Shown here: piece by piece, positions 3,583 through 14,276 of the stretch | Layout of the letters: each line of letters begins with the position of its first letter | Numbering within the stretch: the first letter of the stretch is position 1 | Assembly: GCA_903929755.1 (NCBI GenBank) | Contig: CAIYVZ010000210.1 | Location: 1-49,974, forward strand | DNA length: 49,974 nt | DNA from: an uncultured Acidobacteriia bacterium | Lineage (GTDB): Bacteria; Acidobacteriota; Terriglobia; Bryobacterales; Bryobacteraceae | Reading direction: 5' to 3' | Notes under the pieces: model-generated | What the model saw: the letters and a program-made list of their open reading frames with translations, nothing else | Databases searched by the model: none | Told to the model about the DNA's origin: nothing | Program-made: the position numbers and the translations under genes

Positions 3583-4412
3583 CCCGACGGACGGCACTTT
3601 CCACCCTGGCGGGCACCGCCTTCACCCCCTTCGCCGCCCGCGCGGCAAAGAAGGCGACGGCGTTCGCGCTGATCGGCGACCGATATCACAACTCGGACTA
3701 TATCCGCACTGGTCTGACGCGGACGATCGCAAAGGACATGGGCGTTTCGGTCGATTTCACCGACGAAACTTCGCTGCTGAATGCGGAGACGCTGGATGGG
3801 TACAAGGTTCTGATCATTCTGCGCGATGGCATGATCTGGCCGCAGGGTTATGGCGGGGACGAAAGTACGAATGCCGCGTGGGTGGCGACGGGGCGTCCGA
3901 AGCTGACCTTCGACCCGCCGGTGCCCCCGAGCAAAGCGGAATCGCAGTTTTGGATGAAGCCGGCGCAGGGGAAGGCAGTTCGCCAGTTCGTGGAGAACGG
4001 CGGCGCAGCGCTGTTTCTGCACAACACCACGCATGTCGGCCTGTCGGATCCCGACTTTCGCCATGTGCTGGGCGCGGCGTACACGGGGCATCCGCCGATC
4101 CGGACCTTCAAGGTGAAGGTGACGAATTCGGAACATCCGATAACGCAGGGTGTCCGCGATTTCATCATCACGGATGAACAGCACTATATGACTTACGACA
4201 AGGACCCGAAGTTTCTATTTCTCCAAACGGTGAACGAGGACGGGTTGACGTACGAGAAGCAGGGTGCGACGGCTCATGCGGGTTGGTCTTATGATTACGG
4301 CAAGGGGCGGGTGGCGTATCTGTCGCCCGGCCATATGCTGAGCGATTTGTGGCACCCTTCGGTGATCCGGCTGCAGCAAAATGCGCTGCGCTGGGTGATG
4401 CGGCAAAAATAA
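3576..4412 (+). CDS. ThuA-like domain protein, secreted
   Basis: A 278-residue protein of the ThuA-like (trehalose-utilization, class I glutamine amidotransferase-like fold) family, often found beside sugar oxidoreductases in Acidobacteriota and Planctomycetes. A signal of twin-arginine type (TRRTALSTLAG) covers residues 1-22. The ThuA core includes VLIILRDGMIWP, FVENGGAALFLHN and the late YDYGKGRVAYLSPGH motif, which is characteristic of the family. ATG at 3576 is preferred over an in-frame ATG at 3546 because it follows a strong GGGAGG and places the signal peptide at the N-terminus. It overlaps the receptor stop codon. Its exact activity is unknown; the neighbouring Gfo/Idh/MocA oxidoreductase suggests sugar or polyol metabolism. 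The last third is duplicated downstream at 6671-6901. Confidence 0.88.
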   Translation: MVTRRTALSTLAGTAFTPFAARAAKKATAFALIGDRYHNSDYIRTGLTRTIAKDMGVSVDFTDETSLLNAETLDGYKVLIILRDGMIWPQGYGGDESTNAAWVATGRPKLTFDPPVPPSKAESQFWMKPAQGKAVRQFVENGGAALFLHNTTHVGLSDPDFRHVLGAAYTGHPPIRTFKVKVTNSEHPITQGVRDFIITDEQHYMTYDKDPKFLFLQTVNEDGLTYEKQGATAHAGWSYDYGKGRVAYLSPGHMLSDLWHPSVIRLQQNALRWVMRQK

Positions 4413-4413
4413 G

Positions 4414-4450
4414 AAGCCCGCCGACAGCTGAACACTGTCGGCGGGCTTTT
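4414..4450 (+). terminator. Rho-independent terminator after the ThuA-like gene
   Basis: A perfect 14-bp stem (4414-4427 with 4435-4448) closes a 7-base loop and ends in a run of four T. It starts two bases after the ThuA stop codon. A slightly diverged copy lies at 6902-6938, after the duplicated ThuA fragment. Confidence 0.9.
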
Positions 4451-4451
4451 G

Positions 4452-4738
4452 GTCTTTAGGGCACGCCGTTCGAGCTTGCCGGGCACGTGCAGCGCGATCA
4501 CGGCGAGCAGCCGACCATGTTTTCGGAAACGGGCAGAAAGCGCGTTATCTCACGGTACGTGCCGGGGTCATAGTGCCCTGGTCGCCGATAAAGACGAAGC
4601 CGAGGGGCTGAGACTGGCGGGCGCAGTCGGTGGCGGGACGCGGGGTGCGCGCCTGGCCGGGGTGAACCCTCCATGGCTCCAGGCTTTCGGCCATTTTTAC
4701 GGGGACGGAGGCGTGGGAACCAGACAAGTTGCCATCGG
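4452..4738 (-). pseudogene. Decayed 3' fragment of a Gfo/Idh/MocA oxidoreductase gene
   Basis: This stretch aligns by eye with parts of the intact oxidoreductase gene at 6957-8453. Shared blocks include GAGCTTGCCGGGCACG, TTCGGAAACGGGCAG, GGGCTGAGACTGGCGGGCG and GGTGCGCGCCTGGCC. At least two internal deletions (of about 130 and 60 bases relative to the intact copy) and many substitutions leave no usable frame. With the intact ThuA gene just upstream it mirrors the downstream arrangement, where ThuA is the fragment and the oxidoreductase is intact. It therefore marks one arm of a duplication around the toxin-antitoxin insert. Confidence 0.8.
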
Positions 4739-6670: not shown

Positions 6671-6901
6671 CAGGGTGTTCGCGATTTCATCGACCAAAAA
6701 TTTCTGTTCCTGGAGACGGTGAACGCGGACGGATTGACGTACCAGAATCAGGGTGCGACGGCTCAGGCGGGCTGGTCTTACGATTACGGCAAGGGGCGAG
6801 TGGCCTACCTGTCGCCCGGCCATATGCTGAGCGATTTGTGGCACCCTTCGGTGATCCGGCTGCAGCAGAATGCGCTGCGCTGGGTGATGCGGCAAAAATG
6901 A
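6671..6901 (+). pseudogene. Duplicated C-terminal fragment of the ThuA-like gene
   Basis: The 231 bases align with 4145-4412 of the intact gene at roughly nine identical bases in ten over the last 210. The reading frame is kept to a TGA stop. About 36-39 bases are deleted after GVRDF. The N-terminal two thirds are absent, so the fragment cannot encode a full protein; an internal ATG at 6719 would give only 60 residues. It begins directly after the stop codon of the HEAT-like gene and in the same frame. Confidence 0.88.
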
Positions 6902-6938
6902 AAAGCCCGCCGGCAGCTGAATACCATCGGCGGGCTTT
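6902..6938. terminator. Bidirectional terminator between ThuA remnant and oxidoreductase
   Basis: An 11-bp stem (6902-6912 with 6928-6938, AAAGCCCGCCG) around a 15-base loop. It has A residues on the left and TTT on the right, so it can serve both the rightward remnant and the leftward oxidoreductase gene that ends at 6957. It is the diverged duplicate of the hairpin at 4414-4450. Confidence 0.75.
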
Positions 6939-6956
6939 GGGTTTTTCTGAAGCGGT

Positions 6957-8453
6957 TTAACTGAGAACCCAGCCCTTGCGGAAGTTGGGCTTCAGGTACT
7001 TGTTGGCTTCGGGGTTATTGCTGAAACGGCCCTTTACGGCATCCCATTCGAGCTTGCCGGGCACGCGCAGAGAGATCACGCCGAGCAGCATCCACTCCAC
7101 GAACGGCACCGCGTTGTTGAAGTTGGAGCAGGCCGGATCGCCACCCTTGCAGGCGCGGATCCAGTCACCGTAGTGGCCGGGCGAGCGGGTGAGGCGCGGC
7201 TCCGGGAACTTGTAATCCACCATTTTTTCGGAAACGGGCAGCAGGCGGGTCATTTCGCCATAAGTGCCGGTGGTCATAATGCCCTTGTCGCCCAGGAAGA
7301 CGGAGCCGTTGGGCTGAGACTGGCGGGCGTCGGGGGCGATGGCTTCGGTGTAGCGGTCCATGGTGAAGACCTGTCCGACGTAGCCGGTTGCCGGGCGAGG
7401 GGTGCGCGCCTGGCCTGGGGTGAACGGACGGGAGGGCAGATCGCCCAGCAGTTCGCCGGCGGGGACGCCTTCCACCTTGGGGGCTTCCTTCAGGCCATCG
7501 TGCCAGAAGAGTTTCACGGCGGGCATGTTGCCGCGGGCGGGGAAGTCGTAACGGATCACCGACTTCTTCGGGTACATGAAGTCGCTGGAGCCTTCCTTCA
7601 GGATGCACTCGACTGAGGTGGGCGCGCCCAGTTTCAGTGCCATGTTCGGAGCGCCGAGGATGTGGCAGGCCATGTCGCCGACAGCGCCGCAGCCAAAGTC
7701 AAAGAAGCCGCGCCAGTTGAAGGGCTGGTAGAAGTTGCCGTACTGGTTGGGGTAGCCATCGCCGCCATCTGTATAGGGGCGCTCGGCGGCAGAGCCGAGC
7801 CAGAGGTCCCAGGCGAGGGTGTCGGGCACCGCGGAGGCGGCGGGGAGGGAGGTGAGGCCCTGGGGCCACCAGGGGCGATCGGTCCAGGCGTGAACTTCGC
7901 TCACGTTACCGAGTTGGCCATCCCAAACGATTTCGGCGGCCTGACGGGTGCCTTCATTCGAGTAACCCTGGTTGCCCATCTGGGTGGCAACCTTATATTT
8001 GGTTGCTGCGTCGAGCATGGCGCGCGCTTCCCAGACGGTGCGGACGAGGGGTTTCTGCACGTACACGTGCTTGCCGCGTTCCATGGCTGTAATGGCGGCG
8101 GTGGCGTGCATGTGATCGGGGATGGTGACGATGACGGCGTCAATGTCCTTGCCCTTTTCGTCCAGCATCTTGCGGAAGTCTTTGAACTTCGGCGCCTTTT
8201 CGTATTTTTTGAAGGTGCCGGCGGCGCGCTTGTCGTCCACGTCGCAGAGGGCGACGATGTTCTCGTGCGAGCAGCCCTGAATGTCGCTTTCGGCCTTGCC
8301 GCCTGATCCAATGGAAGCGATATTCAGCTTTTCATTGGGGGATTTGTACCCCATCTGCTTGAGGGAAGGGGTGGCGCCAAAGCCTCCCGTGGGAATCGCT
8401 CCGGCGAGCAGGGACCCGTAAAAGAAATATCGTCGTGAAAAATTTTCAGCCAT
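6957..8453 (-). CDS. Gfo/Idh/MocA family oxidoreductase, twin-arginine exported
   Basis: A 498-residue NAD(P)-dependent oxidoreductase. The N-terminus NFSRRYFFYGSLLAGA is a twin-arginine type signal, so the enzyme probably acts folded in the periplasm. The Rossmann half starts at about residue 35 (LNIASIGSGGKAESD), with VALCDVDDKRA and the family's VYVQKPLVR motif (EKP in many relatives). The C-terminal half has FDFGCGAVGDMACHILG and WDLWLGSA, typical of the planctomycete/acidobacterial exported subgroup. ATG at 8453 is chosen for GGGAG seven bases upstream and for placing the signal at the N-terminus; an upstream ATG at 8492 would add 13 residues. It converges on ThuA across a shared terminator. 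The substrate, probably a sugar or polyol, is unknown. Confidence 0.9.
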   Translation of the reverse strand: MAENFSRRYFFYGSLLAGAIPTGGFGATPSLKQMGYKSPNEKLNIASIGSGGKAESDIQGCSHENIVALCDVDDKRAAGTFKKYEKAPKFKDFRKMLDEKGKDIDAVIVTIPDHMHATAAITAMERGKHVYVQKPLVRTVWEARAMLDAATKYKVATQMGNQGYSNEGTRQAAEIVWDGQLGNVSEVHAWTDRPWWPQGLTSLPAASAVPDTLAWDLWLGSAAERPYTDGGDGYPNQYGNFYQPFNWRGFFDFGCGAVGDMACHILGAPNMALKLGAPTSVECILKEGSSDFMYPKKSVIRYDFPARGNMPAVKLFWHDGLKEAPKVEGVPAGELLGDLPSRPFTPGQARTPRPATGYVGQVFTMDRYTEAIAPDARQSQPNGSVFLGDKGIMTTGTYGEMTRLLPVSEKMVDYKFPEPRLTRSPGHYGDWIRACKGGDPACSNFNNAVPFVEWMLLGVISLRVPGKLEWDAVKGRFSNNPEANKYLKPNFRKGWVLS

Positions 8454-8536: not shown

Positions 8537-9964
8537 ATGGCAGTACAAATTCTATTACAGGGCAGACTCGCAGGTGTGGATGATTTCCTGCTTGCTGCCC
8601 CCGCGAAGCACGACAACCGGGCCTTTGAGGCTCGCCTGCAGTGGAGCACGCTGCTGGGCGAGACTTTGCCCCGCGCTTTGCTGGCTCATCTGGAACTTCC
8701 TTCGCTCCTTTTGGGGACTGCGGGGGGCGGAAACTTTCTGGTGATTCTGCCGGATGCGACCCGGGCCGAAGAAGCGGTGGCGTTTCTGCATCGAAGTAAT
8801 ACGGTGCTGCACGCCGCTACTGGCGGGCTGGTCAGCATCGTGTGGAGTTCTACTGAGAACCTGGGTGACTGGACGGTGGTTCGCAAGCGCCTGGCCGAGG
8901 GGTTGCGGGAACAGCAGAATGCCGCAGTGGCTGGCGCTGGTTTCTTTGATGCCTTTGTGCCGCAGGCTGCTTCGTCCGATGTAATTCCGAAGGGTCTGCG
9001 CGATGCTGCGGGCGTTGGGTGGAGTTTTGAGTTTCCCGCGCTGATTCAGGCCGAAGGCGGCGAGCACCGCTGGGATCTGGGGCGCCAGGCGGGTACGGAT
9101 AATATTTCCGTGCCGAGGCATTCGGCGAGGAACGGCGACGCTCCGGCGTCGGCTCGTGAACTGGCGAAGCGGGCGAAGGGTACGAAAATGTGGGGCATCC
9201 TGCGGGGCGAGATTGATGGCTTTCAGGGCCGTCTGCGCCGTGCTGCCGGGGTGGAAGAGCATGTCCAGCTTTCCGTACTGTACAAACAGTTTCTGGCGGG
9301 CGAGATTGAGTTGCTCTGCTCGCAGGCCGAGTACTTCCAGAAGGTGAGTGTGCTGCGCGCCGGGGCTGCGGATTTCGCCATTGCGGGCTCGTGGGATGCG
9401 CTGGCTTCTTTCGCGCGGGACCTGCAGCGCGTGTTTGCAGTGTTCGCGACCGAGAATTTGAAGGAACTGCTCGGGGCGGAGGCGAAGTCGGTAACCATGT
9501 CGCTGACGCTGGCCGAACCGGCTGACGCGATGGCTGGTGTTTGGGAGTCGAGTGCGCGCGATCTGGAGATCGCGAAGGCTGCGGACAAAGATTGTTTCTA
9601 TCTGCTGGGCCGGGTTCTGGAATGGAAGCAGCTAAAGAACGCTGCCGAATTGCGGGAAACGGTTACAGAGATAAATGAAGATTTCCGGGGCGGCGCGGAC
9701 TTTTTGGCGCAGCTTCGGAACCTCTACCGCAAGGTGGAGACCGCAGCCGTGAATCCGGTTGCGGGCGATCAGGAGCGGCTGGCTGCGAGGGCAATGCGGT
9801 TTCAGCGCCGGTTCGCCAAGGTGGGGACAAAGCGGGAACGTCAGTTCCAGAAGCTGCGTTCGCACCTGATGCAGGAAATGGCCGGCCGGAATCTGCGGGG
9901 GCGGCTGCGGCTGCGTCCGGAGGGTCTGGTGGCGCTTGAATGGGCGCGGCTGGCAGAGGATTAG
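8537..9964 (+). CDS. csm1: Divergent Cas10/Csm1, type III CRISPR large subunit, without HD and with broken GGDD
   Basis: A 475-residue protein recognised as Cas10 from palm-domain patterns and its csm neighbours. Palm 1 shows GGGNFLVILPDATRAEEAV at about residues 61-79, matching the GGxFxLLLP pattern of Csm1. Palm 2 shows WGILRGEIDGFQ (219-230), where the canonical DxD reads Glu225-Ile-Asp227. It also shows VLRAGAADFAIAGSWDALASF, where the canonical GGDD reads Gly276-Ala-Ala-Asp279. No HD motif is seen at the N-terminus. Typical Csm1 proteins are about 750-850 residues, so this one is much reduced. In the family, GGDD makes cyclic oligoadenylate and HD cuts DNA; I infer neither activity remains. 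It would then act as the scaffold holding the crRNA 5' end. The start has only a weak GAGAGA upstream. First gene of a five-gene operon. Confidence 0.82.
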   Translation: MAVQILLQGRLAGVDDFLLAAPAKHDNRAFEARLQWSTLLGETLPRALLAHLELPSLLLGTAGGGNFLVILPDATRAEEAVAFLHRSNTVLHAATGGLVSIVWSSTENLGDWTVVRKRLAEGLREQQNAAVAGAGFFDAFVPQAASSDVIPKGLRDAAGVGWSFEFPALIQAEGGEHRWDLGRQAGTDNISVPRHSARNGDAPASARELAKRAKGTKMWGILRGEIDGFQGRLRRAAGVEEHVQLSVLYKQFLAGEIELLCSQAEYFQKVSVLRAGAADFAIAGSWDALASFARDLQRVFAVFATENLKELLGAEAKSVTMSLTLAEPADAMAGVWESSARDLEIAKAADKDCFYLLGRVLEWKQLKNAAELRETVTEINEDFRGGADFLAQLRNLYRKVETAAVNPVAGDQERLAARAMRFQRRFAKVGTKRERQFQKLRSHLMQEMAGRNLRGRLRLRPEGLVALEWARLAED

Positions 9965-10000
9965 ACTGCAAAGTGGATTTGAAGTCAGGGGAATTTGAAA

Positions 10001-10861
10001 ATGGCTGAAGAACAAAGCGTTAGCGTAGGTCGGGGAAGTCTGGGCGAAGCTCTGGGAGCTGCGTTGGGCTCGGTTGTCGTTTCTGCGCCAAAAGAAGCTC
10101 ACAAAGAAGCCGACGTGACGGCTGCGGAGCCAATAGCGGCGGAAGCGAAATTGGCGGATGCAAAAGCCGATGCCGGAACTGCTGCTCCGGCGCAGGGTGC
10201 ACGTCCTCCCCGCGAACCGCGTCCCCCACGCACGGGTGCTCCGGGTGGTCAACAGGCGAATGCGCCGGGTGGCCAGCAGGGTAATCGTGCAGGTGGCGGC
10301 AATCGGCCTCCCCGTGAGGGTGGTAATCGTCCGCAAGGGGATCGACCGCAAGGGGATCGACCGCAAGGTGATCGGCCCCATGGTGATCGTCCACAGGGTG
10401 GCCGGCCTGGTGGGGATCGTCCCGGCGGAGATCGTCCCGGCGGAGACAGGCCTGGCGGAGATCGTCGTGATTTTCGTCCCGGTGGCGGGGATCGCACTGG
10501 CGGCGAACGTCGTGACTTTGCTCCCGACATCGAAATCGAGAAGCTGATTTCGGACAGCCTCTACCTGGACAACCAGGCGCACGTTGTTGTCAGCCGCATG
10601 CGTGATATGGATTCGGGTACCCGCAGCCAGTTGCGCCGCCTTTACAGCGCGGTGCGGCGTGCCACGCGGGCTCCGGAGAATGAACGGCAGCACGAATTCG
10701 TCATGCTGCGGGCGCGTTTGGCGTACACCATTGCGAGGCACGGACTTCGCAGTCTCGACCAGCTGGAGCGGCTCCTTTTGCAGGTAACGCGTAAGAACGA
10801 AGCTCGTGGTTATGAGCGGTTCCGCGACCTGTTTGAAGCGATTGTCGCGTACAACGAATAA
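10001..10861 (+). CDS. csm2: Csm2 (Cas11-type small subunit) with long Gly/Arg/Pro-rich N-terminal extension
   Basis: A 286-residue protein. The C-terminal ~110 residues (176-286) fit the Csm2 small subunit: SQLRRLYSAVRRAT, then FVMLRARLAYTIARHG and a final helix. Csm2 normally has about 120-150 residues in total and forms the inner filament of the Csm complex that contacts target RNA. The first ~175 residues are low complexity: an Ala/Glu/Lys part (1-60), a Pro/Arg/Gly part, then repeats of GDRPQ/GDRPG from residue 113 encoded by 15-bp DNA units. This extension is predicted to be disordered. ATG at 10001 follows AGGGGA; an in-frame TTG at 9995 is less likely. It lies 36 bases after csm1. Confidence 0.83.
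   Translation: MAEEQSVSVGRGSLGEALGAALGSVVVSAPKEAHKEADVTAAEPIAAEAKLADAKADAGTAAPAQGARPPREPRPPRTGAPGGQQANAPGGQQGNRAGGGNRPPREGGNRPQGDRPQGDRPQGDRPHGDRPQGGRPGGDRPGGDRPGGDRPGGDRRDFRPGGGDRTGGERRDFAPDIEIEKLISDSLYLDNQAHVVVSRMRDMDSGTRSQLRRLYSAVRRATRAPENERQHEFVMLRARLAYTIARHGLRSLDQLERLLLQVTRKNEARGYERFRDLFEAIVAYNE
10337..10471 (+). repeat. Nine in-frame 15-bp tandem units inside csm2
   Basis: Consecutive 15-base units such as GGGGATCGACCGCAA and GGAGATCGTCCCGGC encode GDRPQ, GDRPH or GDRPG. The first two units are identical; later ones diverge, which indicates slippage expansion followed by drift. Confidence 0.9.
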
Positions 10862-10878
10862 GAAACCAGGCAAGCAAA

Positions 10879-11709
10879 ATGAGCGCTCACACTGCACAAA
10901 CGGAATTGAAGCTGATCGGCAAGCTGATCCTCGAAGGCGAACTCTGCTGCGAGAGTGGTTTGCATATTGGGGCGGGCAAAGGCTCGCTCGAAATCGGCGG
11001 CGCGGACAACCCTGTCGTGAAGGATTCGCATGGCCGGCCTTACGTACCTGGCAGCACGCTGCGCGGCCGTATGCGCGCACTGCTGGAGCAGGCGACCGGC
11101 GCAGCTATCCCTTCGGAACTGGTCTATATTTCGAAGCGCAAGGGCCAGGAAGTTCGCATTCACCAGAGCGACCGTCCGGACGATGAAATTTGCCTCCTGT
11201 TTGGCCGCAATCCGGGCCGGATGGAGAAGGTTGGCGGCGGCGATCTGGATGGCAGCGTTGCCACTCCGGCGCGCCTGAGCGTGTTCGACGCTCCGCTGGT
11301 TATCGAGAGCATTACGCCGCAGATGCGCGAATCGCTGGATGATGAACTGACGGAAGTGAAGAGCGAAAACGCCATTGACCGCATCACGTCGCAGGCGAAT
11401 CCGCGGACGCTGGAACGTGTGCCGGCTGGTGCGCGGTTCAAAGTCCGCATGGTGTTGGACGTTCTTTGCCAGGAAGATGCCGTTTTGGCCAGCCTGCTGG
11501 TACAGGGTCTGCGCCTGCTGGAAGACGATACGCTGGGCGGTGGCGGTTCACGCGGCAGTGGCCGGGTTCGTTTCGACGGCCTGAAGCTGGTGTGGCGTGG
11601 TCGCGAGTATTATGCCTCGGGCGCGAGTGAACGCGAGATCGCTTCGGGTGCGGACGTAGCTGGTCTGCAGGGCAAGCTTTCGGAGATCGGCGAGCTGGTC
11701 GCGGCTTAA
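10879..11709 (+). CDS. csm3: Csm3, backbone RAMP protein (Cas7 group) with catalytic Asp retained
   Basis: A 276-residue Cas7-group RAMP protein that would form the crRNA-binding backbone. Typical features are GLHIGAGKG (27-35), IGGADNPVVKD (39-49), YVPGSTLRGRMRALLE, and the Gly-rich loop LGGGGSRGSGRVRF near the end. Asp43 corresponds by local pattern to the Csm3 catalytic aspartate that cuts target RNA every 6 nucleotides in characterised complexes. Target RNA cleavage may therefore be intact. It starts 17 bases after csm2 and ends 6 bases before csm4. Confidence 0.93.
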   Translation: MSAHTAQTELKLIGKLILEGELCCESGLHIGAGKGSLEIGGADNPVVKDSHGRPYVPGSTLRGRMRALLEQATGAAIPSELVYISKRKGQEVRIHQSDRPDDEICLLFGRNPGRMEKVGGGDLDGSVATPARLSVFDAPLVIESITPQMRESLDDELTEVKSENAIDRITSQANPRTLERVPAGARFKVRMVLDVLCQEDAVLASLLVQGLRLLEDDTLGGGGSRGSGRVRFDGLKLVWRGREYYASGASEREIASGADVAGLQGKLSEIGELVAA

Positions 11710-11715
11710 TTCCCC

Positions 11716-13176
11716 ATGGCGCTGATTGAAGTCAGGCTGCGACCCACGGGGCCGTGGCGCACAGGATATCGTGGCGACCGGGAACGCGTCGATGTGGTTT
11801 ACCACAGCGATACGTTGTTCTCCGCCGTTACCCATGCCATGCGCGCTCTGGGTTGGATGGAAGAGTGGCTGGCCGCGACGGTCGGCGCAACGGGGGAACC
11901 GGCGGTTCGTTTGGGTTCGTTATTTCCTTTCGTGGGGAAGACGCGCCTGATTGCTCCGCCGCAGAGCGTTTGGCCGCCTTCCGGGCGCGGGCAACTGCAT
12001 TTGAGTGGCGCGAAACTGGTGCCGCTGGAAGTTCTTCGTCAGGGTATTCAGGACGAGGCTCGCTGGGAAGTGGATGGCGAGTGCCAGTGTTTGCTGCCTG
12101 CGAATGGGACGGCTCCGTTCCGCATTGTGGTGCGTGAATCGGCTGCGGTGGATCGTCTGACCGGGGTTGCGGAAGGGCATAAGACAGCTTGTCTGGAGTT
12201 TGCTCCGAATTCCGGTTTCTGGGGCGTGTTTTCGGCTGCGGACAAGGTTTGGGAATCGCGCGTGAAGTCGGCGTTGCGGTTGCTGGCGGATTCGGGCTTT
12301 GGTGGTGAACGTTCGCGTGGATGGGGCCGTTCTGCAGAACCTCAGTTCAACGACGCGTCGCACTTATTCCCCGCTGCGAGTGAAGATACGGCGGCCTGGT
12401 GGCTGTTGAGTTTGTATTCGCCGGATGCTTCGGACGCGGTGGACTGGACGAAGAGCCAAAGCTCCGTGACGGTTCGCGGCGGCTGGACGGATAGTTCGGC
12501 TGGTGTGGGATTGAAGAAACAGGTTCGGCTGGTGGAAGAAGGTTCCGTGCTGGCTGCGCCAGGGTTGCGGGGCAGGGCAGTGGATGTGGCGCCGGAAGGC
12601 TTTGCACATCCCGTGTATCGCGCCGGATTTGCGTTGGCGGTTCCTGTGCCGGTGCCTGCGGAAACGGCTTCTAAGAAGAAGCCTGTCAAAGAAGAACCCA
12701 AGGCCGAAGCTGTGGTGACGGAACTGGAAGTTGTTCCCGTTGTGGAAGTGGCGGAGCCTGTGGTGCTGGAGTTGGTCGAGGTGGGCGCTGCGGAAGTGCC
12801 GGTGAGTGAGGCCGTTGAACCGGTCGTTGCTGAATCGGTCGTTGCTGAACCGGTCGTTGCTGAACCGGTCGTTGCTGAACCGACCGCGGTTGAACCGACT
12901 GTGGTTGAACCGACTGTGGTTGAACGGGCCGCTGTTGAACCCGCTGCTGCTGAACCGAGCGTTGCTGACGCGGTTGTTACTGAGACGGCTGCTGCTGAAC
13001 CGTCGGTTGCTGCCGCGGTCTTAGCTGAAGCCGTCGTAGCCGAAGCGGCTGTCGCTGAATCGGGCGTTACTCCAGTAACCCTGACCGAATCCGTGGCTTC
13101 TGGGCCGGTCGCCGCTGAAGTACCGGCGGCTACTCCTGAACCACCCACTGAAGTCGTTGAAGAGGTGCAGGCATGA
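11716..13176 (+). CDS. csm4: Csm4 (Cas5 group) with long acidic Val/Ala/Glu/Pro tail
   Basis: A 486-residue protein. Residues 1-315 match Csm4 in length and pattern: RLRPTGPWRTG at the N-terminus, YHSDTLFSAVTHAM, FPFVGKTRLIAPP, then the RAMP Gly-rich loop GFGGERSRGWGR, and a C-terminal FAHPVYRAGFAL motif. Csm4 binds Cas10 and the crRNA 5' tag. After a short KKKPVKEEPK linker the last ~170 residues are almost only Val, Ala, Glu, Pro, Thr and Ser, strongly acidic and predicted disordered. Such a tail is not part of Csm4 proteins I know. The gene overlaps csm5 by 4 bases (ATGA). Confidence 0.87.
   Translation: MALIEVRLRPTGPWRTGYRGDRERVDVVYHSDTLFSAVTHAMRALGWMEEWLAATVGATGEPAVRLGSLFPFVGKTRLIAPPQSVWPPSGRGQLHLSGAKLVPLEVLRQGIQDEARWEVDGECQCLLPANGTAPFRIVVRESAAVDRLTGVAEGHKTACLEFAPNSGFWGVFSAADKVWESRVKSALRLLADSGFGGERSRGWGRSAEPQFNDASHLFPAASEDTAAWWLLSLYSPDASDAVDWTKSQSSVTVRGGWTDSSAGVGLKKQVRLVEEGSVLAAPGLRGRAVDVAPEGFAHPVYRAGFALAVPVPVPAETASKKKPVKEEPKAEAVVTELEVVPVVEVAEPVVLELVEVGAAEVPVSEAVEPVVAESVVAEPVVAEPVVAEPTAVEPTVVEPTVVERAAVEPAAAEPSVADAVVTETAAAEPSVAAAVLAEAVVAEAAVAESGVTPVTLTESVASGPVAAEVPAATPEPPTEVVEEVQA
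12811..12960 (+). repeat. Ten in-frame 15-bp tandem units inside the csm4 tail
   Basis: Units of the form GTTGCTGAACCGGTC run without spacers and encode V-A-E-P-V variants. Two adjacent copies (12841-12870) are identical. The period and the in-frame coding show protein tail growth, not a CRISPR array. Confidence 0.9.
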
Positions 13177-14276
13177 AGTACCGTGCAATGGTTCTGACGC
13201 CCACTTTGGTGGGCGATGGCAACCGTCTGGCGCCAATCGACTATATGGTCTGGCGCGATCAGGTCAACGTCCTGGACCAGACCAGAATTTTCAAGCTGCT
13301 GGCCCGCGGGCCTCGGCTGGAAGGCTATCTGCAGCAGTTGAGCAGGGCTACCCGGCTCGATTTCGCGTCCTGGGGCGGCTTTGCTCAGAACTACGCTGAC
13401 CGGCATATTCCATTCGAAGATGCATCGTGCACCCCGAACTGGAACGCTGCCACTACGGAAAGCCTGTTCATCCCGACGTTCGCCGCTGCTGCTTCCGGGC
13501 CGTACCTGCCGGGTGCCGCGATTAAGGGCGCGTTGCGGACAGCGTACGTATTTTCGCGCGTGAAGCCTGCCGCGATCAAAGAACTGGCAGAGAGAATGGC
13601 CGGCGATAAGCCACCTCGCCGGATCGCGGAGCAACTGGAACACCAGACCACGGGTCAGGGTGGTTCGGACAGAATGCGGGCGGTTGCCGTTTCAGATTCC
13701 GGCGTTACGAAGCGCGATCAGTTCAAGGTCTATATGTGCAAGACCTCGTCATTGATTCCGAAAGGGCCGACGCAGTTCTCGCTGGGCTGGAAGCAGACCG
13801 AGTTCGCCGAGATGGCGGCTCCGGGAACGATGTTCGAAGGCTCGTGGCGCGAAAATGAATTTCTGAATCGCGAGGAAGTCCGGAAGTCTCTGAACTGGAG
13901 CAAGCCGGTGAATCACCAGATGCTTTTCGAGGCGGCGAATCAGCATGCCGCGAAGCAACTGGAGATTCATGCGAAGTACGCTGAGATTGCCGGGATGGCC
14001 GATCTGGCTGCGACTGTGAAGGCCCTGCAAGGGCGTCTGGAAGCTGCCCAGAGTGCTGGTTCCTGCCTGCTGGCACTGGGCTGGGGCGCTGGGTTCCTGA
14101 GTAAATCTGCCGCCATTGGGGCGGACGAAGCGGATCACCGCAAGCTGCTCGGGATGCTGCCGATGTATTCGCGTGCCATCAAGAGTGGTCTGCCTTTCCC
14201 GAAGACTCGTTGTGTAGTGTTCATGGGGAACCGTCCGGCGGCGTTGCCCGGCTGGGTTGAACTCCGCGTCGACTGA
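13173..14276 (+). CDS. csm5: Csm5, RAMP protein (Cas7 group), crRNA 3'-end cap subunit
   Basis: A 367-residue RAMP protein of usual Csm5 length. It shows ESLFIPTF followed by GPYLPGAAIKGALRTAYVF (about 109-127), the conserved motif of the family. Near the C-terminus are LALGWGAGFLSKS, a typical Gly-rich segment, and PFPKTRCVVF. Csm5 sits at the 3' end of crRNA and in studied systems recruits maturation nucleases. It is the last csm gene; no cas6, csm6 or CRISPR repeats follow. Directly downstream, in the same frame, lies a fragment of an unrelated monooxygenase gene. Confidence 0.9.
   Translation: MKYRAMVLTPTLVGDGNRLAPIDYMVWRDQVNVLDQTRIFKLLARGPRLEGYLQQLSRATRLDFASWGGFAQNYADRHIPFEDASCTPNWNAATTESLFIPTFAAAASGPYLPGAAIKGALRTAYVFSRVKPAAIKELAERMAGDKPPRRIAEQLEHQTTGQGGSDRMRAVAVSDSGVTKRDQFKVYMCKTSSLIPKGPTQFSLGWKQTEFAEMAAPGTMFEGSWRENEFLNREEVRKSLNWSKPVNHQMLFEAANQHAAKQLEIHAKYAEIAGMADLAATVKALQGRLEAAQSAGSCLLALGWGAGFLSKSAAIGADEADHRKLLGMLPMYSRAIKSGLPFPKTRCVVFMGNRPAALPGWVELRVD

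Follow-up and report, generated by a model that had tools for sequence, protein, structure and literature searches.

What does a type III CRISPR effector do when its locus holds no array and its Cas10 protein lacks the expected active-site motifs? We address this question for a csm operon on contig CAIYVZ010000210.1 (GenBank assembly GCA_903929755.1) from an uncultured Acidobacteriia bacterium of the family Bryobacteraceae; the window, meaning the whole stretch of DNA analysed, is 49,974 nucleotides (nt) long. The genes csm1-csm2-csm3-csm4-csm5 are collinear on the (+) strand (8537-14276), the first three pairs lying 36, 17, and 6 nt apart and csm4 overlapping csm5 by 4 nt (ATGA), in agreement with the single compact operon reported in a preliminary description made from the sequence alone. 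On balance, we consider it probable that this is a III-A-derived Csm complex domesticated as an RNA-cleaving ribonucleoprotein, which would be fixed in the family and perform an RNA job intrinsic to the lineage. Judged from the sequence comparisons below, the trait that defines it is the family-wide, HD-less Csm operon itself, with its largely vertical inheritance, array-less locus and co-occurring Cas6, rather than the broken cyclase.

Distribution, descent and selection of the operon

In a sample of 200 genomes of the order, Csm1 was found in 170 and Csm5 in 165, all of them in Bryobacteraceae; one or both were present in 173 of the 180 Bryobacteraceae genomes and in none of the 20 others. 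A class-wide sample of 200 genomes gave just two weak matches outside the family. Named GTDB genomes contained 201 relatives, and among the 80 listed all but one (an Acidimicrobiia) are titled Acidobacteriota or a subgroup (Bryobacterales, Bryobacteraceae, Solibacteraceae, Terriglobia and the like); nearly all are metagenome-assembled genomes. We took 60 neighbourhoods from the 170 matches for genus spread and extent of contig, which together with the window represent 36 genera. The five genes have the same strand and order in 58 of the 60, and the other two are interrupted by contig ends. At locus L054, csm1 and csm2 are separated by ~1 kb.

Distances between RpoB sequences and between concatenated Csm1, Csm2, Csm3, and Csm5 sequences were correlated across 28 of 30 genomes (Mantel r 0.82, 0 of 5000 permutations; G066 had no RpoB match and G016 only a fragment), and 13 of the 16 strong RpoB splits were recovered in the Csm tree. 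When 22 of the 61 solitary sequences were placed in trees with 10 or 11 sequences from ordinary III-A loci of the phylum, solitary Csm1 and solitary Csm3 each formed one clade with a support of 1.0. Descent of the operon therefore appears largely vertical, which is not proven everywhere. Between the window and its two closest relatives, the ratios of nonsynonymous to synonymous substitution (dN/dS) are 0.07-0.10 for Csm1, 0.11-0.12 for Csm2, 0.04 for Csm3, 0.12-0.14 for Csm4, and 0.03-0.06 for Csm5, with some dS values in comparisons within the genus being saturated. By these ratios, the operon is evidently under purifying selection in the window's genus.

The Csm proteins and their active sites

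NCBIfam profiles recognise all five products, with scores above the curated cut-offs for Csm2, Csm3, Csm4, and Csm5. The csm1 (cas10) gene (8537-9964) encodes 475 aa, and its match to the Csm1 profile (TIGR02578, E-value 1.7e-30) bears out its assignment to Cas10 with a score under the curated cut-off, the best stretch running from position 482 to 737 of the 753-position profile. In alignments with Csm1 proteins of solved structure, residues 5-10 fall opposite residues 222-272, beyond the stretch that would hold the HD domain. The protein accordingly begins at palm 1, with the HD domain absent. An AlphaFold2 (AF2) model built with 56 family sequences has a mean pLDDT of 87, and its best 50 Foldseek matches in the PDB are all Csm1 chains (top E-value 2e-18, TM 0.76 by query length), with no non-Cas10 fold as a better match. 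E225 and D227 of the first metal motif of palm 2 (EID, residues 225-227; 9209-9217) lie at the end of strand 219-226, while GAAD (residues 276-279; 9362-9373), at the position of the GGDD motif, lies in the hairpin between strands 270-275 and 279-285; in the model, both motifs sit at the expected palm-2 active site.

Neither GGDD nor GGDE occurs anywhere in the full-length Csm1 sequence. Its sole HD dipeptide (residues 25-26) was not taken as an HD motif, because it lies within palm 1 and only the two closest relatives among the 61 aligned sequences have it; a hidden HD or GGDD elsewhere in the protein was rejected. The preliminary reading of Csm1 (475 residues, no HD motif, Gly276-Ala-Ala-Asp279, and Glu-Ile-Asp) thus held in each particular. 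The 61 Csm1 copies are 450-507 aa long, 57 of them under 500 aa, and none contains an HD domain; the open frame before the start codon adopted extends no further than 85 aa, and no HD occurs in the eight longest of these extensions. Taking active-type cyclase motifs from a published list (Hoikkala et al., 2024; PMC11229360), we found one in 0 of 11 sequences from the window's genus, as against 44 of 50 from other genera of the family, the six exceptions falling one each in g8, g17, g18, g27, g45, and g50. The 11 sequences from the window's genus have nine different four-letter versions at the GGDD position, none a known active form. D227 is invariant in all 61 sequences, and palm 2 has a dN of 0.066-0.081 and a dS of 0.95-1.16 between the window and its two closest relatives. 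Loss of HD and GGDD is supported for this Csm1 and its genus, in which cyclase activity also appears to be lost. The preliminary claim of a complex without signalling or DNase activity, left to work on RNA, thus finds partial support: the motif losses behind it hold for the protein and its genus, but a broken cyclase does not characterise the wider system, where most sequences from other genera retain an active-type motif.

The backbone subunit gene csm3 (cas7; 10879-11709; TIGR02582, 5.4e-56) encodes D43 (codon 11005-11007) within GGADNPVVKD, which in alignments matches GGxDNPV of solved Csm3 proteins. We take D43 to be the expected RNase aspartate, and it is kept in 60 of 60 sequences. Since this residue is intact, the activities naturally left to the complex in the window's genus are only RNA binding or cleavage.

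For csm2 (10001-10861; TIGR01870, 3.2e-10), we took the ATG at 10001 as the start and not the TTG at 9995, which gives 286 aa. The AF2 model is disordered through residue 177 (pLDDT mostly <50, no secondary structure) and continues with six helices; its best structural matches are Csm2 chains, with weak E-values (best 0.016). This helical core (10532-10858), 110 columns selected as the conserved domain, has a mean pairwise identity of 86% over 60 sequences, compared with 73% for Csm3, 53% for Csm5, 50% for Csm4, and 48% for Csm1. Core identity exceeds that of Csm3 in 1768 of 1770 pairs, in contrast to 0 of 15 pairs from ordinary III-A loci of the phylum. The latter control comprised 12 Csm2 loci (two of them solitary) plus L041 and L145, of which six had both Csm2 and Csm3 above the score limit. 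The contrast was unchanged when the best 95-column stretch of ordinary Csm2 was used (mean 0.36, maximum 0.84; 36 pairs, nine loci). In the 28 genomes in common, mean identity of the Csm2 core is 0.856 and that of RpoB 0.846.

The predicted disordered tail preceding the core (residues 1-177; 10001-10531) is rich in Arg, Gly, and Pro. Tails of 35-177 aa could be parsed in 55 of 60 sequences, with a Gly+Arg content of 16-57% (30% or more in 41 of these); those of genera g10, g11, and g14 are richer in Ala, Pro, and Glu. The five unparsed sequences differ slightly, for instance by PLY in place of SLY, and a tail is present by eye. No such tail was seen in seven ordinary Csm2 proteins inspected, a few of which have short leaders of different composition.

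The csm4 (cas5) gene (11716-13176; 486 aa; TIGR01903, 1.6e-37) ends in a Val/Ala/Glu/Pro repeat tail (12652-13173) encoded by a 15-nt repeat family. Such tails also occur in relatives, where their lengths differ widely, and they are acidic where the Csm2 tail is basic. We also scanned synonymous sites for guide-like RNA inside the csm genes. Codons 112-126 of csm4 (12049-12093) show an excess of third-position identity over 60 genomes (z 4.5 relative to the other stretches of csm4), and the best z in the other genes is 1.7-3.1; the csm4 signal could reflect either codon usage or an RNA element. The last gene, csm5 (cas7-like; 13173-14276), matches TIGR01899 (9.3e-19).

Guides, partners and related systems

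Cas1 was found in 96 of the 180 family genomes. Of these 96 genomes, 92 retain the csm operon, as do 81 of the 84 without cas1 (Fisher p 0.68 over the order), and the 81 cas1-less genomes indicate that its retention is independent of the adaptation module. Cas6 is present in 156 of the 180 genomes, including 154 of the 173 csm-positive ones, and 71 of the 84 cas1-less genomes have csm and Cas6 together. Co-occurrence of csm and Cas6 within the family has a Fisher p of 5e-4, a value that is only nominal because the genomes are related. There is no Cas6 at the window's operon; in its genome, one Cas6 gene is solitary on contig C84 and another belongs to a cas4-cas1-cas3-cas7 locus on contig C107, with 54% identity between the two proteins over residues 165-296.

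A repeat search of the window revealed no CRISPR array among the best 20 of 21 repeat families. None was seen either in the 80 named loci (1.12 Mb, with flanks of up to 9 kb, many being limited by contig ends to less than 9 kb) when these were scanned for repeats present in three exact copies at 55-90 nt; the two array-like matches were two of the neighbourhoods already inspected. The sets of named and unnamed loci overlap. In 60 other neighbourhoods, a loose repeat scan flagged 13. Eight were inspected by reading and rejected as arrays, being tandem or coding-type repeats without variable spacers, and the five unread ones (L054, L057, L086, L098, and L104) fail the three-copy scan. Regions around cas1 matches contained real arrays in 15 of 20 cases. 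We also followed the repeat linked to the closest Cas6, which occurs in 38 of 200 genomes, in many as multi-unit arrays and in some as single copies. An array of this repeat was rejected as a dedicated guide source on that count; in a search confined to this repeat type, it was present in 10 of the 81 csm-positive, cas1-less genomes. The cas1-less genome G100 has a lone CRISPR-like repeat (contig C3, L271), perhaps a remnant of a decayed array. Tandem repeats lie ~0.6-2.1 kb downstream of csm5 at L081, L085, L089, L097, L099, L101, and L102. Read by eye, they encode Pro-rich peptides (such as PPPDPWGDGL, LPPNPWDEGPPK, and RPPDPLGFDREI), and in several loci they adjoin a small recurrent gene whose product looks hydrophobic.

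In 28 of 59 loci, from 18 genera, csm5 is followed by a same-strand gene for an ExeA/XrtA-type AAA ATPase. These ATPases are 69-100% identical to the L101 copy (L101:2068-2952, - strand) and resemble the XrtA/PEP-CTERM-associated family TIGR03015 (295 bits, below the cut-off of 324.5). Their only match to a nuclease profile was a weak, sub-threshold one to ResIII, a search that did not extend to other recurrent flanking clusters. No ATPase was found beside csm5 in the window's genus, and with 28 of 59 loci it was rejected as a constant sixth subunit. Nor were CARF or HEPN effectors found as constant partners in the 30-40 genomes searched. Csm6 HEPN (with a profile that matched in no control genome) and Csx1 HEPN were each found in 0 of 30 genomes, and the CARF profile TIGR02710 matched in 5 of 40, one below the cut-off and none being the window's genome. 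CARF matches in G039, G049, G012, and G056 lie near ordinary CRISPR genes, except for the strongest, in G039. That protein (contig C1:2196715-2197866; E-value 1.3e-50) is encoded far from the ordinary CRISPR locus of its genome.

The operon resembles type III-A in its five Csm subunits and their order, its Cas10 fold, and its Csm3 family. A direct comparison is offered by genome G039, where an ordinary III-A locus (L041:5351-16351) coexists with a solitary HD-less operon. The Csm1 of the ordinary locus has 834 aa, an HD motif near residue 18, and GGDD, and a Csm6-type ring nuclease, two CARF genes, Cas6, and cas1 lie nearby. An HD domain in Cas10 is usual, not universal, for III-A. It is absent here, as are the GGDD motif, an array, and a Cas6 gene at the window's locus, whereas the Csm3 aspartate is present. 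The III-A2 variant differs in having no identifiable Cas11/Csm2, while Csm2 is present and highly conserved here. The solitary operon makes up a separate clade derived from III-A and is not a subtype distinguished by additional genes.

An inactivated palm is shared with subtypes III-C, III-G, III-H, and III-I, in which the Cas10 cyclase is inactivated or lost according to a recent account (PMC12669027), and our comparison is mainly with III-G and III-H as described there. III-G similarly has no arrays or adaptation genes and is thought to take crRNAs in trans. In III-G and III-H, HD is retained and the Cas7 aspartate is lost; the opposite is seen here, where all five Csm genes are also present. 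HRAMP and ARAMP (PMC8730458) are likewise array-less, type-III-related, and confined to one lineage. They have strongly diverged Cas5/Cas7 proteins and nucleases, whereas all five Csm proteins here are recognisable by profile, Csm3-5 scoring above the cut-offs; flanking genes were not searched for nucleases family-wide. The same paper describes a Streptomyces I-E derivative that also has effector genes without Cas3, adaptation genes, or an array. It consists of type I proteins with a STAND NTPase partner, in contrast to type III proteins here and an ExeA/XrtA-type ATPase in part of the family. HD-less Cas10 proteins with or without the cyclase also appear in type III loci in the survey of complete genomes by Hoikkala et al. 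(2024; PMC11229360), where Cas10 proteins of <500 aa are excluded, a limit that would hide most of this family. We found no published report of this operon in literature on Bryobacteraceae, Solibacter, or Acidobacteria with CRISPR and Csm, in which subscription papers were covered only partly, and the main text of Makarova et al. has no match for "Acidobact".

The operon is flanked in the window by ordinary chromosomal genes, namely those for a Gfo/Idh/MocA oxidoreductase, a BON-domain protein, and CstA. More distant genes encode an FtsJ-type methyltransferase, a transglutaminase/TgpA-like protein, LepA, and tRNA-Thr. Five collinear stretches of 80-89% identity connect positions 4203-4662 with 6692-7419, their spacing drifting from 2489 to 2757; the pattern suggests that the end of the Gfo/Idh/MocA gene was duplicated together with its flank in shortened form.

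Weighing the possible roles

CRISPR effectors are usually patchy in distribution, horizontally moved, and fast-evolving. This operon, near-universal and cas1-independent, under purifying selection, mostly vertical in descent, and with Csm2 as its slowest subunit, is more in keeping with a cell-intrinsic role than with one in an arms race. In the domesticated complex that we propose, Cas6 would process a guide-bearing transcript in trans, the Csm3 filament would bind and cut complementary RNA, and the Csm2 tail could add RNA affinity or recruit a fixed partner. The palm domains could still produce a nucleotide messenger in most other genera; in the window's genus, messenger activity would be gone, leaving RNA binding and Csm3 cleavage. 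It is quite conceivable, though short of probable, that the Arg/Gly-tailed Csm2 with its core as slow to evolve as RNA polymerase, the Csm3 ribonuclease filament, and a co-inherited Cas6 form a family-wide housekeeping machine for host RNA. Such a machine would use a fixed guide of non-CRISPR origin or no guide at all, and signalling would be dispensable, as the window's genus illustrates.

Several observations weigh against domestication. Seven family genomes have neither Csm1 nor Csm5, two strong Csm splits contradict RpoB, and dN/dS reaches 0.26 in more distant pairs of the genus. Structural constraint alone could account for the conservation of Csm2. Cas6 was undetected in 19 of the 173 csm-positive genomes, and since cas1-linked and solitary Cas6 proteins are intermixed in their tree, with no clean separate clade, we claim no dedicated Cas6. 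The window's genome also has an 8-unit CRISPR array at the end of contig C58 and a cas4-cas1-Cas6-cas3 locus, so crRNAs are obtainable in trans there.

This last point leads to the main rival, a reduced III-A effector that is still immune in function and would cut phage RNA with Cas6-processed crRNAs borrowed from other arrays. The 8-unit array, the frequency of Cas1 in the family and of arrays beside it (15 of 20 regions), the similarity of the solitary to the cas1-linked Cas6, and the III-G precedent, thought to work with crRNAs in trans (PMC12669027), are all in its favour. We nevertheless regard it as rather unlikely: 81 of 84 cas1-less genomes keep the operon, the repeat of the closest Cas6, the one type searched, is in only 10 of 81 of them, and the conservation of Csm2 and Csm3 and mostly vertical descent are unlike what is expected of a defence locus. 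The palm of the window's genus might instead remain catalytic through E225, D227, and D279 with another product, as the invariance of D227 and the purifying selection on palm 2 would allow; nine motif readings in 11 sequences, no known active form among them, make this improbable, and structural constraint could account for the rest. Targeting of DNA could also persist if a separate HD protein or other partner supplied the DNase in trans. The ATPase in 28 of 59 loci means that partners may exist in part of the family, but the absence of a nuclease profile in this ATPase beyond the weak ResIII match, and of the gene beside csm5 in the window's genus, leaves this explanation less probable still. 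Finally, a decaying relic of a CRISPR locus would be in keeping with the loss of HD and GGDD; it was rejected by the dN/dS of 0.03-0.14 for the five genes, and the open frames and a gene order and strand conserved in all relatives not cut by contig ends also make it scarcely credible.

If domestication is the correct explanation, the Bryobacteraceae operon would clearly exemplify the recruitment of a multi-subunit CRISPR effector to a cell-intrinsic role, and Csm function without immunity would become a directly testable question. In the copies examined, the family also provides a natural series that separates the three activities of type III systems, with HD missing throughout, the cyclase motif lost in one genus, and the Csm3 aspartate kept.

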